Below are positions 3,971 to 44,834 of a stretch of 64,000 bases of DNA, in pieces. The notes under the pieces were generated by a model that saw nothing but the letters and a program-made list of their open reading frames with translations, did no database searches and had not been told where the DNA came from. Position 1 is the first letter of the stretch. The number at the start of each line of letters is the position of its first letter. The translations under genes were made by a program, and so were the position numbers. The DNA comes from Myxococcota bacterium. GTDB lineage: Bacteria; Myxococcota_A; Bradymonadia; UBA7976; UBA1532. The DNA lies in assembly GCA_963169045.1 (NCBI GenBank), contig CAUJDF010000028.1:1-64000 (forward strand), given 5' to 3'.

Positions 3971-6750
3971 CGGACGGGCGCCTTCACCGGCAGCCGCGGA
4001 TCGCCGCCGCTCAACACACGCGCGTCGAAACACAGGGACGTCGGGCGGCTGCCTTCGTTGTCGATCCGCAGGTCGAACTGCATGGGACGGGCGCCCGCCA
4101 GCAGCTTCACGTCGACCGCCTGGCCGTGCGCATCGCGGGCGGCGCGCCCCCGGAAGACCCGCTTGCCGTCGGCCTCGATGGTGAGCGTGACCGGCGTGTT
4201 CTTCGTGCCGAGGCCGCGCGGCACGCCGTAGTGGCCGACGAGGCGGTCGCCGCGCGGCACGCGGGTGTAGCGCAGGCGCACGCTGCCGCGGGGTGGCAGC
4301 GGGGTGATGACACACCGATAGGTGGAGAAGGGCTCGAGCTGCGCGGCGCCCGGTCCCAGGCGCGGCGCGTTCTCGACCCCACAGATGAAGCCGTCGGGCA
4401 GGGGCGTACAGCCGCGCTGCTTGCCGTCGGCCTTCTTCAGCACCACGTCGGCGTCGTTGAGCGACTCGAGGAAGTCGTAGCGCACCTCGCCGAGGTCGCC
4501 GCGCGGACGCCACGCGCCGAGCGCCAGCGTGGCCGCCGCGCCGGCGCCGAGCAGCGCGACCGAGGCCACCGCCGGCACGCGCGGCCAGCGCTCTCCCAGC
4601 CGGACGGCCGCCGCGTGGACGCGCGCCGAACGCGGGCGCAGGCGCGCCGTGTCCCCGAGCGCGAGCGCGAACGCCAGCAGCAAGCCGAACGCGCCGAGGG
4701 CCAGCGCGAGGCGATCCCCGGGCGAGCGCACGAACTCGAAGCGGTAGGTGCCCGGCTCGAGCGCCACGCTCATGAAGCCACTGTCGGCGACGCCGCGCAG
4801 GGGCTCGGTGCGGATCTCGATCGGCGCGCCGTCGCGCGTCGCGCGCCACCGCGGGAACGCCGACACGTTCAGGCGCAGCCGTCCCCGCGCCCCCGGTCCG
4901 GCCTTCAGCTCGACGCGCTCGTCCTCGAAGCGGACGAGCTGCACCTCGCCCGCCCCGTCGACCACGAAGGGCAATGGCCCCCACCCCTCGAAGCGATGAA
5001 CGCGCAAGGGCCCGAAACGCTTGAGTAATTTGAAGTGCGGTGCCGGCTGGTCCCCCGAAGAGATCACGTAGCGCACGTTCAGCGCCCGCAGCACGTCGGG
5101 GGTGCCGGCGGCGAGCTTGTACTTGTATGTCGCGGCGGGGACGTTGCCGGAGCGGTAGACGGGCGCGCCGAGGTCGACGGCCAGGTCCATCAGCGTGTTG
5201 CCGTGCTCCCGCCCGAGCAGCGCCCAGCGATGGAAGCCCTCGTCCGGCAGCGTCTTCGCCCAGGCGACGAGGTCGGCGCGCTCCTTCTGCAGCGGGCGGT
5301 CCGAGGCGTACTGGAGCGACCGGACGAAGTGCGCGCGCACGACCTCGGTGGCCAGTCCGAACAGCATCGGCGCCAGCAGGAACGTGACCGCGAACACACG
5401 CGCCGGGCCCGCCCACGACGGCGCCGCCTCCGCCGTCCGCAAGAGGCGGCCGGCGTTCACGAGCACCACGGCCGCCCCGGTGAACATGAAGGGCTTCAGC
5501 AGGATGACGTACCGCTCGTACTGGATGCGGCCGAACGACTCGCTGATGGCGCCGAGGTGCAACTCGTCCACCAGGCTGCTCGCCGACGCGCCGACGAGCG
5601 CCGCCACCATCAGGCCGCAGAACAGATGCGTCCAGCGGCGGGCGCGCAGCAGCGCGACCGCCCCCAGGAGCGCGGCCCCGAACACCAGCCAGTGCGTGTC
5701 GCGGAAGACGTTGCCCCGCCACGTGGCCACGCCGAGGTCGAAGCCCGAGTGCCACGGGGCGCCGAAGTCCCCGCTCGCCGACTGGGTGTCGAGGAACGGC
5801 AACAGCCACGTCGCGGCCAGCAGCGCGGCGACGAACGTCCCGGCGCCGAGCCGCAGGGCGCCCGCCACCCACGCGAAGCCGCCGCCCGTCCATGCCTTCG
5901 AGAGCGGCACCACCGCGATGGCGAACAGCAAGAGGTGCAGCTGCAGCGGGTGACAGAGCACCGCCAGCCCCATGAACACACCGAAGGCCGCCACGGGGCG
6001 CAGGCGGTCCCCCTCGACGATGGCCGGCAGGCGCGCCAGGCCCAGCAACGCGAAGGCCACCGACAGACTCTGCGGCCACACGCCCCAACTGAGCGCGAAG
6101 CTCCAGCCTCCCTGGCGGAAGTAGCCGGTGTCCGTCAGGAGGAGGAGCGCCGCCAGCACGCCGACCGGCCGGCTGACCATGCGCTTGCCGAAGTCATAGG
6201 CGGCGTAGCCGAGCAGCAGCGAGAAGAGCCAGATGGCCACCCCGTAGGCCTGGGAGAGCGACAGAAGGCCGAACGAGAGACCGTGGACCGCCACGACCCA
6301 CAGATCGCCGCCCATGGGATACAGATAGTTCGCCGGCTGGCCCGCGAACCACCATGGGCTCCATCCGAAGACACGGCCGTCCGGCAGGAGACGCGTCTCG
6401 AGCTCCCACGCCTTCAGGTAGTGAACGACGTGGTCGTGGCTGACGGGGCGATCGCCCAGCAGCGCCGGCCAGAGCAGCACCGACACGACCGCCGCCAGCA
6501 ACGCCAGCACGGCGGCCTCGGCGGCGAGCTCGCCCCGGCGTCCCGCGAGCCGGCGCGTGGCCCATGCGCGGGCCGGCGGCCAGAGCGCCGAGAGGCCCGA
6601 CGCCAGCGACGCGAGGCCCACCCACCAGCCCGGCGGCGGCAGCCAGACGAGCGCCAGGCCGGCGGCGCACAGCGCGGCGCCCGCGTACAGGACGCCGCGG
6701 GGTCGGGGGGCCGGCGCCGGCGGCGCATTTGGGGCGGCGGACGGGATCAT
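3967..6750 (-). CDS. large polytopic membrane protein, GT-C / PTPS-related-like
   Basis: The 927-residue protein has a Pro/Ala-rich cytoplasmic N-terminus, then about a dozen hydrophobic segments in the first 550 residues. A soluble, probably periplasmic stretch follows (about 550-700), then one further membrane helix pair and a C-terminal beta-rich domain. The first extracytoplasmic loop holds DHVVHYLKAWEL and WSPWWFAGQPANYLYP, an arrangement typical of the 6-pyruvoyl-tetrahydropterin-synthase-related and YfhO-like GT-C membrane proteins. These are thought to be lipid-linked sugar transferases, although substrates are mostly unknown. The family assignment is from pattern only. It is the last gene of a long minus-strand run, 42 bp after glgX. 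Confidence 0.7.
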   Translation of the reverse strand: MIPSAAPNAPPAPAPRPRGVLYAGAALCAAGLALVWLPPPGWWVGLASLASGLSALWPPARAWATRRLAGRRGELAAEAAVLALLAAVVSVLLWPALLGDRPVSHDHVVHYLKAWELETRLLPDGRVFGWSPWWFAGQPANYLYPMGGDLWVVAVHGLSFGLLSLSQAYGVAIWLFSLLLGYAAYDFGKRMVSRPVGVLAALLLLTDTGYFRQGGWSFALSWGVWPQSLSVAFALLGLARLPAIVEGDRLRPVAAFGVFMGLAVLCHPLQLHLLLFAIAVVPLSKAWTGGGFAWVAGALRLGAGTFVAALLAATWLLPFLDTQSASGDFGAPWHSGFDLGVATWRGNVFRDTHWLVFGAALLGAVALLRARRWTHLFCGLMVAALVGASASSLVDELHLGAISESFGRIQYERYVILLKPFMFTGAAVVLVNAGRLLRTAEAAPSWAGPARVFAVTFLLAPMLFGLATEVVRAHFVRSLQYASDRPLQKERADLVAWAKTLPDEGFHRWALLGREHGNTLMDLAVDLGAPVYRSGNVPAATYKYKLAAGTPDVLRALNVRYVISSGDQPAPHFKLLKRFGPLRVHRFEGWGPLPFVVDGAGEVQLVRFEDERVELKAGPGARGRLRLNVSAFPRWRATRDGAPIEIRTEPLRGVADSGFMSVALEPGTYRFEFVRSPGDRLALALGAFGLLLAFALALGDTARLRPRSARVHAAAVRLGERWPRVPAVASVALLGAGAAATLALGAWRPRGDLGEVRYDFLESLNDADVVLKKADGKQRGCTPLPDGFICGVENAPRLGPGAAQLEPFSTYRCVITPLPPRGSVRLRYTRVPRGDRLVGHYGVPRGLGTKNTPVTLTIEADGKRVFRGRAARDAHGQAVDVKLLAGARPMQFDLRIDNEGSRPTSLCFDARVLSGGDPRLPVKAPVR

Positions 6751-6792
6751 GAGGCGAAGGGCTATACCAGAGCCCTCCGGCCCGGCGCCACG

Positions 6793-9033
<2,241 letters not shown>

Positions 9034-24951: not shown

Positions 24952-24967
24952 TGGCACGCTGCTTGCT
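24952..24967 (+). promoter_or_regulatory. sigma-54 (RpoN) promoter, full consensus match
   Basis: TGGCACG-CTGC-TTGCT matches the -24/-12 consensus TGGCAC(G)-N4-TTGC(A/T) at every position, with GG and GC ten bases apart. Transcription would start near 24978, about 43 bp before the mini-gene GTG. Transcription from such promoters requires an NtrC-type activator; one is encoded at 41414-42787, but no link is shown. Confidence 0.75.
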
Positions 24968-41413: not shown

Positions 41414-42787
41414 CTACGCGAGGCCGCCGAAGTCCTCGTGGTCGATGCCCCAGCCCTTGAGCTTCCGCTGCAGCGTGCGGCGATTGATGCCGAGGATCTG
41501 CGCCACGCGGGTGATGTTGCGGTGGCGCGCGAGCAGGCGCTCGATGTGGCGGCGCTCGACCTCCTCGAGGCTGAGCTCCTCGTCGGTGGCGCCGGCGGCG
41601 GCGGGCGCCGCGGGGGGGGACGCCGGGACCGCGGTCGAGAACGGGTTCGCGGCGAGCATGCGCCGCACGAGCCCGGCCTCGACGCGGCCCGCCTCGGCGA
41701 ACAGGGCGAGCCGCCGCGCGAGGTTGACCAGCTCGCGCACGTTGCCCGGCCAGTCGTGGGCCACGAGCACCTGGTGCGCCTCGTCGGTCAGCGAGAGCTC
41801 GGGCCGCCCCACCACCGACAGCCAGTGCCCCAGGATCGGCAGGATGTCTTCCTTGCGGACGCGGAGCGGCGGCAGCTCGAGGGGCAGCACCTGGAGGCGG
41901 TAGTAGAGGTCCTCGCGGAAGCGCGCCGCGCGCACCTCGGACGGCAGATGCCGGTGCGTGGCGGCCACCAGTCGCGCCATGAACGGCCGCTCGGCCGTCT
42001 CGCCCACGGGCCGGAAGGAGCGCGTCTCGATCACCCGCAGCAGCCGCGCCTGATGCTCCGGCGCGAGCTCGGCGATCTCGTCGAGGAAGAGCGTCCCCTC
42101 GCCCGCCTCGTCGAACAGACCGGGCTTCCGGCGGTCGGCGCCGGTGAACGCGCCGCGCGCGTGGCCGAAGAGCTCGCTCTCGACGAGCTCCCGCGGCAGG
42201 GAGGCCATGTTGACGGCCACGAACGGGAACGGCGCGCGCCGCGAGCGGGCGTGCAGGTAACGCGCGGCGACCTCCTTGCCCGTCCCCGTCTCGCCCGTGA
42301 GCAGCACCGGCTCGTCGGCGTCGGCGATGCGGTCGAGGAGGGCGCGCGTGCGCGCGGTGGCGGTGCTGGTGCCGGCGAGGCGCTGCTCGTCGCGCGTCGG
42401 CGCCACCGCCTGCCGCAACACCGGCGCGAGGTCTTCGGCGTCGACCGGCTTCATCAGGAAGCTGTACGCGCCGAGCCGCATGGCCTCGACCGCATCGGGG
42501 ACGGTGCCGTGCCCGGTGAGCACGACCACCGGCACCCGCCGCCCGGCGGAGCGCCGCAGCACGTCGAGCCCGTCGAGGTCCGGCAGGCGGAGATCGAGCA
42601 GCGCGACGTCGGCGCCCGGCTCGGCCCCCGGCTGCAGGGCGGCGAGCGCATCGTGCCCGCTGGCGAGCGCGGTCACCGCGAAGCCACGGCGGCGGAGCGC
42701 CTTGCCCATCGCGGTGCGGAAGCCGGCGTCGTCGTCGACGAGGAGGACGCGCAGCGCTTCGGGCTCGATGCGGGTGCCGGAGTCCAT
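41414..42787 (-). CDS. NtrC-family sigma-54 response regulator
   Basis: The 457-residue protein has a receiver domain (DDD at 18-20, phosphorylatable Asp65 in VALLDLRLPD, Thr91, Lys113). An AAA+ domain follows with Walker A GETGTGK 165-171, the sigma-54 contact loop GAFTGA 212-217 and Walker B FLDE 234-237. A Fis-type helix-turn-helix occupies about 424-445 (NITRVAQILGINRRTLQRKL). It should activate RpoN-dependent promoters once phosphorylated. No histidine kinase is encoded in the window, so it is an orphan here. It is divergent from the DksA-like gene across 167 bp that contain palindromes and a sigma-54-like promoter. Confidence 0.95.
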   Translation of the reverse strand: MDSGTRIEPEALRVLLVDDDAGFRTAMGKALRRRGFAVTALASGHDALAALQPGAEPGADVALLDLRLPDLDGLDVLRRSAGRRVPVVVLTGHGTVPDAVEAMRLGAYSFLMKPVDAEDLAPVLRQAVAPTRDEQRLAGTSTATARTRALLDRIADADEPVLLTGETGTGKEVAARYLHARSRRAPFPFVAVNMASLPRELVESELFGHARGAFTGADRRKPGLFDEAGEGTLFLDEIAELAPEHQARLLRVIETRSFRPVGETAERPFMARLVAATHRHLPSEVRAARFREDLYYRLQVLPLELPPLRVRKEDILPILGHWLSVVGRPELSLTDEAHQVLVAHDWPGNVRELVNLARRLALFAEAGRVEAGLVRRMLAANPFSTAVPASPPAAPAAAGATDEELSLEEVERRHIERLLARHRNITRVAQILGINRRTLQRKLKGWGIDHEDFGGLA

Positions 42788-42851: not shown

Positions 42852-42880
42852 GTCACGGAGGGGTGACGGCCGGGGCCGTC
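42852..42880. promoter_or_regulatory. overlapping inverted repeats in a divergent regulatory region
   Basis: GTCAC-n6-GTGAC (42852-42867) overlaps a 16-bp perfect palindrome with arms GACGGCC/GGCCGTC (42865-42880). They lie 19 bp upstream of a sigma-54-like -24 element and 65-93 bp from the start of the response regulator gene. They are candidate binding sites for that regulator; this is inferred from position only. Confidence 0.4.
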
Positions 42881-42898
42881 CCCTCGGCGTCGGCGCCG

Positions 42899-42914
42899 TG
42901 GCGCGCACCATGCA
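42899..42914 (+). promoter_or_regulatory. sigma-54-like promoter for the DksA-like gene
   Basis: TGGCGCG-CACC-ATGCA keeps the essential GG and GC with ten bases between them and differs from the consensus mainly by A for T at the first base of TTGC. The start would be near 42926, about 30 bp ahead of the ATG. It is weaker than the match at 24952. Confidence 0.45.
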
Positions 42915-42954: not shown

Positions 42955-43290
42955 ATGAACGCCAACGAGTTCCGACGCATCCTTGAGGAGCGGCGCGACC
43001 GCCTCGTCCACCGGTACCGGCGCATCGGGGACGACCGCCAGAACGTCCCCGAGACGCAGCCGGGCGAGCTCAACGAGCAGGCCCAGCTGCTCGAGAACGA
43101 GGACGTGCTGAACAAGCTCGATGAGGCCACCCGCGCCGAGCTCTCGGCCGTCCGCGGCGCGCTGGAGCGCGTCGACAAGGGCGTCTGGGAGACCTGCGAG
43201 CGTTGCGGCGAGCCCATCGAGGAGCCGCGCCTCCGCGCGCTGCTGACGACCCGCCACTGCGCGACCTGCGCCCGGGAAATGCTGTCGTGA
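42955..43290 (+). CDS. DksA/TraR-type C4 zinc finger protein
   Basis: The 111-residue protein has an acidic coiled-coil N-terminal part (about 1-75, ending GALERVDKGVWETC) and a C4 zinc finger with Cys81, Cys84, Cys102 and Cys105 (CERCGEPIEE ... HCATC). This is the DksA/TraR layout: such proteins enter the RNA polymerase secondary channel and change promoter choice, often with ppGpp. The coiled-coil tip lacks an obvious DxxDxA motif of classical DksA, so it is more like the TraR/YteA relatives. The ATG is preceded by GGAGG. The next gene starts ten bases after its stop, with its own GGAGG, so the two form an operon. Confidence 0.9.
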   Translation: MNANEFRRILEERRDRLVHRYRRIGDDRQNVPETQPGELNEQAQLLENEDVLNKLDEATRAELSAVRGALERVDKGVWETCERCGEPIEEPRLRALLTTRHCATCAREMLS

Positions 43291-43300
43291 GGAGGTCGCC

Positions 43301-44404
43301 ATGCAGATCGAGGTCGCTTTCGGCGACATCCCCTGGGAACCGTGGGACCAGCGCGCGCTCGAGCGTCGCCTGCGGTGGCTCGACGCGGCGCTCGGCCGCT
43401 ACGGCCTGAGCGCGACCGCCCGCCTCGACGTGGAGGTCCGTCCCTTCGGCGACGGCGACGTGCGCGCCGAGGCCTGGCTGACGCTCGACGGCACAACGCT
43501 GCGCGCGGCCCACGTCGACTCGACGCTGCCCGGGCTCGAACGCGGCCTCGTCGACGCGCTGCGGGCCGAGTTCGACCGATATCGCCTGCGGGTGAATCCG
43601 CGCCTCCGCGCCCGCGCCGACGAGCGCCGACGGCGTCTGCAGGCGCCCTCGGCGACGCTCGGCCATGCCTTCCGGCGTCTGCCCGAGCGGACGCAGGTGC
43701 AGGTCATCGAGCGTCTGATGCCGCGCCTGCGCCGCGTGGCCAGCCACGAGATCGCGCTGCACCAGGCGCAGGGCGACCTCGAGCCGGGCTTCGTCGATCC
43801 CATCGACGTCGTCGACGAGGTGCTCGGCGACGAGCTGGCGGCGCAGGCGCTGACGCACTCGCTGCCCCAGCTGGCGCACCGGCTCGAGAACCGCATCGTC
43901 GAGCGCGTCCACGTGCTCGTCCGCGAGATCGAGGCCGCGCGCGCCAACGTGCCGCTCGAGACCGAGGTGCGCGAGCTCTCGGAGCCCTCGACGTCCGACG
44001 ACCTGTACGTCTCGGACCTCGCGCGCAACCTGCAGCAGTTCTGGGTGCTCGACGAGGCCCTGCGCCTCGAGGACACGTTCACGGATCCCAGCTCGGTGGA
44101 CCCGGAGACGGTGGTCGCCGAGCGCGAGGGTCAGGAGATCCTCGTGCAGGGCCTCTTCCGGCTGCCGGAGGAGATGCGCCGTGTGTTCTCGGCGGTGCTC
44201 GTCGACGGATGGAGCCGGGAGGAGGTGGCCGGCGCGCGTGGCATCCCGGTGTCCCAGATCGACGGGCTGATCGACGAGGCCACGCACCGGCTCGCGCGCA
44301 CGCTCACCGGCGCGCCGGCCTACTCTTCGGAGCGTGTCGTCGAGCTGTACACGGCGCTGGGGGAGCAGCTGCACCGCAACCCGGTGCGCCTGCAGAGCTC
44401 GTGA
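43301..44404 (+). CDS. HPF/RaiA-like domain fused to sigma-factor-like helix-turn-helix
   Basis: The N-terminal 110 residues have the beta-alpha-beta-beta-beta-alpha pattern of ribosome hibernation factors (MQIEVAFGDIPW, LRWLDAALGRYG, LDVEVRPFGDGDVRAEAWL, LRAAHVDSTLPGLERGLVDA). Residues about 138-180 (LRRVASHEIALHQAQGD, PIDVVDEVLGDEL) recall sigma region 2 of ECF-like factors. Residues 279-335 (LFRLPEEMRRVFSAVLVDG, WSREEVAGARGIPVSQIDGL, DEATHRLARTL) match sigma region 4.2, the -35-binding helix-turn-helix. The combination would join ribosome binding to promoter recognition. It follows the DksA-like gene. The HPF part is the least certain, since sequence similarity to HPF is low. Confidence 0.75.
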   Translation: MQIEVAFGDIPWEPWDQRALERRLRWLDAALGRYGLSATARLDVEVRPFGDGDVRAEAWLTLDGTTLRAAHVDSTLPGLERGLVDALRAEFDRYRLRVNPRLRARADERRRRLQAPSATLGHAFRRLPERTQVQVIERLMPRLRRVASHEIALHQAQGDLEPGFVDPIDVVDEVLGDELAAQALTHSLPQLAHRLENRIVERVHVLVREIEAARANVPLETEVRELSEPSTSDDLYVSDLARNLQQFWVLDEALRLEDTFTDPSSVDPETVVAEREGQEILVQGLFRLPEEMRRVFSAVLVDGWSREEVAGARGIPVSQIDGLIDEATHRLARTLTGAPAYSSERVVELYTALGEQLHRNPVRLQSS

Positions 44405-44502: not shown

Positions 44503-44537
44503 GCTGCCGGGCTCGACCGGATGACCGGAGGACGATG

Positions 44538-44834
44538 ATGAGCGAGACCACCCGACGCACGACGAAGCGCACGCCAGGCGGCGCCGACGAGACGCCCGCG
44601 ACGAACCGCCGGCGCAGCATGCCGACCGCGGAGCCGGGCAACGGCAGCCGCGCGAAGAGCGCTCCCCGCGCGATCGCCGTCGACGTGACCACCGGCGGCC
44701 AACCGGTCCTCGACCGCGAGGAGCGGATCCGCATGACCGCCTACTTCCTCGCCGAGCAGGATGGCTTCCGCGGCGAGCCGGAGAGCTACTGGCTCGCCGC
44801 CGAGCGCGCCGTCGCAGACTCGACGACGCGCTGA
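44538..44834 (+). CDS. DUF2934 domain protein
   Basis: The 98-residue protein has a basic, Thr/Arg-rich disordered N-terminal half and a C-terminal DUF2934 motif (DREERIRMTAYFLAEQ, GEPESYWLAAERAV). DUF2934 proteins are small, widespread in soil proteobacteria and of unknown function. GGAGG lies six bases before the ATG at 44538; the adjacent ATG at 44535 is too close to it. The last 49 bases overlap the end of the LysR gene on the opposite strand. Confidence 0.8.
   Translation: MSETTRRTTKRTPGGADETPATNRRRSMPTAEPGNGSRAKSAPRAIAVDVTTGGQPVLDREERIRMTAYFLAEQDGFRGEPESYWLAAERAVADSTTR

Follow-up and report, generated by a model that had tools for sequence, protein, structure and literature searches.

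A protein family that joins HPF/RaiA-type and sigma-type domains on one chain, a possible sigma mimic

Can a single polypeptide unite a domain of ribosome hibernation factors with the fold of a sigma factor, and if so, what would such a protein do? The question is raised by a gene in a 64,000-nucleotide stretch of myxococcotal DNA (contig CAUJDF010000028.1, positions 1 to 64,000, hereafter the window). Here, we report that HPF-type and sigma-type domains are joined in one protein and that this joining is conserved across a diverse family. The balance of the evidence leaves an even chance that the protein is an HPF/RaiA-type domain followed by an ECF-type sigma fold turned sigma mimic, acting as a stress adaptor or decoy. 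The gene and its DksA-like neighbour are surrounded by ordinary metabolic genes on a long contig, and the features of the operon and its upstream region are these:

41414–42787, minus strand: divergently oriented sigma-54 response regulator of the NtrC family, which may activate the operon
42855–42890, strand-less: imperfect inverted repeat of 2 x 17 nt upstream of the sigma-54-like site, a candidate activator site
42899–42914, plus strand: sigma-54-type promoter-like site TGGCGCGCACCATGCA, an exact match to the relaxed consensus that may be due to chance
42955–43290, plus strand: DksA/TraR-like C4 zinc-finger protein of 111 aa (PF01258 40.2 bits, PF21173 30.8 bits, both above cut-off)
43301–44404, plus strand: fusion gene of 367 aa encoding an HPF-like domain, basic connector, sigma2-like domain, linker motif and sigma4-like domain (full-length homologue, AlphaFold model)

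The reading frame at 43301–44404 is, on three sequence criteria, a genuine gene: its ATG start is preceded by the ribosome-binding sequence GAGGAGGT, it begins 10 nt past the stop codon of the DksA-like gene, and a full-length homologue from another genome of the same phylum has an open frame with 37% identity across residues 1–359 (E 5e-50). Because of the short gap and the ribosome-binding sequence, the DksA-like gene is probably the first gene of one operon with the fusion gene. The sigma-54-type site is found 40 bp ahead of the DksA-like start and, together with the divergent sigma-54 activator, it agrees with the original prediction of a sigma-54-type promoter at this locus. Since the consensus at one mismatch or less had four matches in the window against 3.2 expected, the putative site is to be judged by its position and exactness and not by rarity. 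Elsewhere in the window the relaxed consensus is matched exactly once more, by TGGCACGCTGCTTGCT at 24952–24967 on the plus strand. The scan around the operon gave no sigma-70-type promoter and no terminator. Downstream of the fusion gene the window harbours a small DUF2934 protein (44535–44834, plus strand; PF11154, 49.5 bits), which is absent beside other members of the fusion family.

The DksA-like neighbour had been taken to suggest a starvation or growth-arrest module. What stands of this is the stress tie, which the family displays through neighbouring chaperones and proteases (see below), while the DksA-like neighbour proved local and not conserved: tblastn and phmmer over all loci examined found no DksA-like ORF near the other family members. 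A conserved module of DksA and fusion gene was consequently ruled out, co-occurrence being confined to the window itself. The C4 zinc finger of the DksA-like protein is complete and its coiled-coil tip reads, by eye, ELNEQA; the tip of E. coli DksA is DPVDRA.

How widespread is the fusion? A contig scan of genomes with the window protein alone gave no relatives, a profile of plasmid members being needed. The distant relatives were first brought in by tblastn against plasmids; the contig scan that succeeded used a five-row alignment, and the linker pattern [FY]E[FY][YW]QPD[ED] yielded 149 relatives in genome contigs, with 80 loci kept. By record title the members belong to alpha-, beta- and gammaproteobacteria, Nitrospirae, Blastocatellia and Syntrophaceae/Geobacter, with Kocuria in one record; the family is found in records of Pseudomonadota, Nitrospirota and Acidobacteriota and in the window's own phylum. 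When 379 genomes of that phylum were queried with the protein, a single full-length relative came up, and a profile search added three further, more diverged ones. A class-wide protein search returned a full-length match in the window's own genome only, and the family therefore appears to be sporadic and not a lineage marker.

The N-terminal half of the window protein consists of two parts:

43301–43594, plus strand: HPF/RaiA-like domain, residues 1–98 (4hei_A Z 13.7, 1.9 A, 92 residues; S30AE matches in the family)
43595–43678, plus strand: basic arginine-rich connector, residues 99–126, with R105–R112 (family alignment, HPF-surface comparison)

Taken alone, the window protein has no S30AE (PF02482) match in Pfam, and in the PDB it finds the HPF 6qbz at a non-significant E of 0.87. 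This lack of a significant match is the one point in favour of regarding the protein as an ordinary ECF-like sigma relative whose HPF likeness is a chance alternation of strands and helices. The family speaks against it: S30AE is matched by 25 of 34 members at E≤0.01 (best E 2.3e-10), and L037, L043 and L045, though not the window protein, pass the curated cut-off, one of them with sigma region 4 on the same chain. Profiles of the family find HPFs in the PDB at E 9e-9 (34 members) and, with nine members, HPFs at E 9e-7 and sigma factors at E 4e-9 at different ends. The N half aligned with HPFs at 98.2% probability in hhalign, and the cross-controls gave 0.2% and 0.3%. In the AlphaFold model all HPF elements are present in HPF order within residues 1–98 (strands 2–7, 41–48, 54–62 and 65–73; helices 17–32 and 76–98), with V. 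cholerae HPF as the structural match listed above (4hei_A, VIA-align), and a separate model of a family member from the heat- and chlorine-resistance island tLST (L082, pLDDT 75.5) gave an HPF Z of 13.9. With two models at Z 13.7–13.9, a chance resemblance is extremely improbable, and the HPF/RaiA-like alternation originally noticed in the first 110 or so residues is borne out.

The surface of the domain has changed relative to 20 HPFs of the window's own phylum. Positions of alpha-1 are K/R in 85–90% of HPFs and in 15–29% of the fusion family, in a gappy alpha-1 alignment, and at one position of alpha-2 K/R has given way to E/D (K/R in 80% of HPFs versus 3%). Other positions in the alpha-2 region have kept or gained basic residues (79–91% R/K), and the arginine patch that follows alpha-2, with R109 and R110 at about 90%, is new relative to HPF. 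Ribosome binding by this half is plausible and not transferable from HPF by homology; given that most alpha-1 basics are missing, ribosome docking may have been lost or changed in the fusion family. A further HPF is encoded in the same genome (L033; G000:C79:81938–82243, minus strand), where the frame runs on into a cold-shock-like stretch, VVARLFKEEGYGFLRPLDGGPEIYFHRNAV; read by eye, this is a possible fusion of HPF and CSD.

The remainder of the protein comprises the following:

43679–43945, plus strand: sigma region-2-like helical domain, residues 127–215, with the motif D169-V-V-D172 (model versus 5uxx, hhalign)
44033–44074, plus strand: linker signature QQFWVLDEALRLED, residues 245–258, consensus [FY]E[FY][YW]QPD[DE]xLRLED (family alignment)
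44102–44308, plus strand: sigma region-4-like helix-turn-helix, residues 268–336 (Pfam, PDB profile match, model)
44249–44293, plus strand: recognition helix VSQIDGLIDEATHRL, residues 317–331, net charge -2, DNA-contact arginines missing

Against Sigma70_r4_2 the window protein scored 19.2 bits, below the cut-off of 25.7, and it matched TIGR02985 at E 1.5e-5. In the family, 24 of 34 members matched Sigma70_r4_2 at E≤0.01, and the claim of a sigma region 4 was upheld by the match of the 34-member profile to sigma-E in the PDB (E 5e-14) and by hhalign of the C half against ECF sigmas (99.0%). Residues 126–343 of the model align with Bartonella RpoE/EcfG bound to NepR (5uxx; Z 12.4, 4.3 A, 150 residues), followed by SigW-RsiW, CnrH-CnrY and PhyR-NepR as the next-best folds. 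As modelled, this stretch is a complete two-domain ECF-type sigma fold (sigma2 and sigma4), and the likeness to region 2 noted in the first reading thus extends to an alignment with whole sigma2-sigma4 proteins.

Both halves occur on one chain above curated thresholds in Cupriavidus L037 (S30AE 28.4 versus 23.7 bits, Sigma70_r4_2 35.9 versus 25.7 bits), and the fusion, for which PF02482 and Sigma70_r4_2 hits on one chain had been named as support, is hence documented in a relative, the window protein itself staying below the cut-offs. A member on plasmid pMTS3 of Cupriavidus sp. P-10 (L039, 4004–4717) is split into two ORFs annotated as hypothetical and sigma factor-like, and is probably a decayed copy. 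The AlphaFold model of the window protein, computed with 39 relatives as input (mean pLDDT 77), has long helices at 100–126 and 129–156, a sigma2-like bundle up to 215, a low-confidence linker at 220–254 and sigma4 helices at 268–335, and the L082 model aligns with 5uxx at Z 13.8 (3.1 A, 152 residues). The relative placement of the HPF and sigma halves is uncertain in these models (pTM 0.57, 0.61). No paper describing an HPF-sigma fusion was found among open-licence papers, which is weak evidence of absence.

Does the sigma-like half read promoters? Aligned regions of 34 family members, 15 ordinary sigmas and 3 PhyR proteins were compared for charge. The recognition helix of region 4.2 has a mean net charge of -1.9 in the family (range -5 to 0, n=34), +3.4 in ordinary sigmas (+1 to +5, n=15) and -2.3 in PhyR (n=3), with no overlap: all 34 members fall below all 15 ordinary sigmas. 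Region 2.3/2.4 likewise averages -1.5 (-4 to +3) in the family versus +3.9 (+2 to +7) in ordinary sigmas, and in most members E/D or hydrophobic residues occupy the usual N/R positions of region 2.4. These counts come from related proteins, so that the events are not independent, and most members are only about 20–25% identical to the window protein. In real sigmas it is region 2.2 that lies towards the beta-prime clamp of RNA polymerase; in the family this region keeps an acidic [DE]-x-V-D, with D at the Q position in 32 of 34 members, and in PhyR it is lost. Because regions 2.4 and 4.2 are de-charged and the acidic region 2.2 is kept, the promoter-reading side would be gone and the polymerase side may remain. 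Of the 34 members, 11 match PF22233 (PhyR_sigma-like), and the structures closest to the family models include the complexes of PhyR and of EcfG with NepR.

These observations bear on whether the protein is instead a true alternative sigma whose N-terminal HPF-type domain acts as a sensor, the protein staying on ribosomes or RNA during growth and being released to polymerase and promoters under stress. The sigma2-sigma4 fold is complete, some members pass the Sigma70_r4_2 cut-off, annotators label some members sigma-70 or sigma-28, and one locus has a weak zf-HC2 neighbour; yet regions 2.4 and 4.2 have systematically lost their basic DNA-contact residues, and region 2.4 its usual N/R, and the non-overlapping recognition-helix charges point the same way. 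A de-charged helix alone does not prove that DNA binding is lost, and we regard a true sigma as unlikely. The promoter binding originally envisaged for the protein finds no support, given this family-wide loss.

The scattered family is undescribed and, by sequence, includes orf11 of tLST. Withheld from the alignment, the pair of window protein and sister L004 still matched the other members in hhalign, at 97.3% in the N half and 99.5% in the C half; held out against the other members, the window protein scored 20.1 bits (E 5e-4) in the N half and 95.5 bits (E 2e-27) in the C half, where the best shuffled window-protein/L004 scores were 8.7 and 12.4 bits. In the tree the window protein and L004 form a fully supported pair at a large distance from other members; the join toward the tLST clade is weak (61/88) and deeper joins are unsettled. 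The held-out matches and the tree together document common descent of the window protein and the tLST Orf11 family over full length. A review of the island puts the identity of Orf11 to proteins of known function below 30% (PMC8290217). Its deletion left lipid oxidation unaltered (PMC8407380). Two observations count against the sigma-mimic reading: in E. coli MG1655 with the island orf11 is outside the seven genes required for heat or chlorine survival (PMC8407380), and it is disrupted in LHR2 (PMC5383660).

The 88 loci formed 35 clusters at 80% identity, and in 18 of these Hsp20, ClpK, FtsH, DnaK, GroEL, DegP/HtpX or ClpP genes lie within the fetched flank, a raw count taken without a random-locus background and a lower bound, several contigs being short. 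The family is often located in stress or proteostasis islands. The 64-kb window has no ClpK, sHsp20, YfdX or HdeD neighbours. In a Blastocatellia locus (Acidobacteriota, L086) the order is Hsp20, FtsH, fusion, a weak zf-HC2 and baeRF family 10, so that at 5440–7969 the fusion is linked to both anti-sigma-type and ribosome-rescue-type genes. The anti-sigma-type zinc finger zf-HC2 is below the Pfam cut-off and was found in this one locus, and there is no conserved anti-sigma neighbour. Genes for baeRF have been reported linked to HPF (PMC6514570). In gammaproteobacterial sulfur oxidisers the fusion gene is preceded by a DsrC-like gene, either immediately or at a distance of two genes, and in L075 a histone-like DUF1931 gene also lies next to it or just upstream (DsrC-like and DUF1931 coordinates: L075 4218–4664 and 3771–4121, L081 3101–3451, L116 4371–4901, L128 6324–6854). 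PF04358 confirmed DsrC in L075 and L116; L081 and L128 were read by eye. For the few neighbours of these branches that were run through Pfam, the matches were to DsrC and DUF1931 and not to anti-sigma factors.

Among known systems, tLST Orf11 shares family, architecture, the HPF and sigma folds and a stress-island setting, but is about 20% identical to the window protein and resides in a mobile island with ClpK, YfdX, HdeD, Trx and KefB neighbours. HPF/RaiA (YfiA, PF02482) resembles residues 1–98 in fold and, in part, in alpha-2 arginines and an overall basic surface; in contrast, the fusion family has lost most alpha-1 basics, carries a sigma fold and has no long-HPF C-terminal domain. The sigma-like domain of PhyR, the anti-anti-sigma factor of the alphaproteobacterial general stress response, has a sigma2-sigma4 fold and a de-charged recognition helix in common with the family, but PhyR has a receiver domain and no HPF, and its region 2.2 is lost where that of the fusion family is acidic. 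No C-terminal receiver domain was found in the window protein. ECF sigmas (EcfG/RpoE, SigW, CnrH) share the fold of residues 126–343 and differ in that their regions 2.4 and 4.2 retain the DNA-contact residues and that they have no N-terminal HPF domain. The archaeal HPF-CBS fusion HibA likewise joins an HPF domain to a second module, although this is a CBS module, HPF is C-terminal, the host is an archaeon and the ribosome-bound structure is known (PMC13324472).

HibA also illustrates how the protein could be a ribosome- or RNA-bound hibernation factor only, its sigma-like part having nothing to do with transcription and serving as an arm for dimerisation, docking or sensing, much as C-terminal or fused modules serve in long HPF and RafH. 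Such fused HPF modules are known, and the HPF fold with its new arginine-rich connector would suit this role; a mere arm would however have no need of the conserved [DE]-x-V-D of region 2.2 and the linker signature, and we consider this reading unlikely.

Under the preferred reading of a sigma mimic, the protein would be induced under stress, here probably from the sigma-54 promoter and along with the DksA-like RNA-polymerase-type factor. The HPF-like domain would dock on the small subunit of the ribosome or on some other structured RNA, and the sigma-like module could, without reading a promoter, engage core RNA polymerase via region 2.2 or, alternatively, an anti-sigma factor in the manner of PhyR. 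Transcription control would thereby be coupled to the state of translation, and the protein might either free a stress sigma, as a decoy, or park the polymerase alongside parked ribosomes. The fuller proposal, in which idle ribosomes are occupied by the HPF part and the sigma mimic at the same time occupies core RNA polymerase or strips away an anti-sigma factor, for joint shutdown or reprogramming of transcription and translation, with tLST Orf11 as a mobile form, is put forward tentatively and is doubtful as it stands.

If the sigma-mimic reading is true, the annotation of family members as sigma factors is functionally wrong. The HPF and sigma make-up would be the first structural identity for orf11 among searchable papers, and it gives a testable identity to this unexplained gene of a mobile heat- and chlorine-resistance island on hundreds of plasmids, where 303 plasmid records matched, 263 of them across most of the query. 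The same holds for proteins that currently carry a sigma-factor or hypothetical annotation. As a candidate, the family may also physically connect the hibernation of ribosomes with the control of RNA polymerase, which are usually studied apart.
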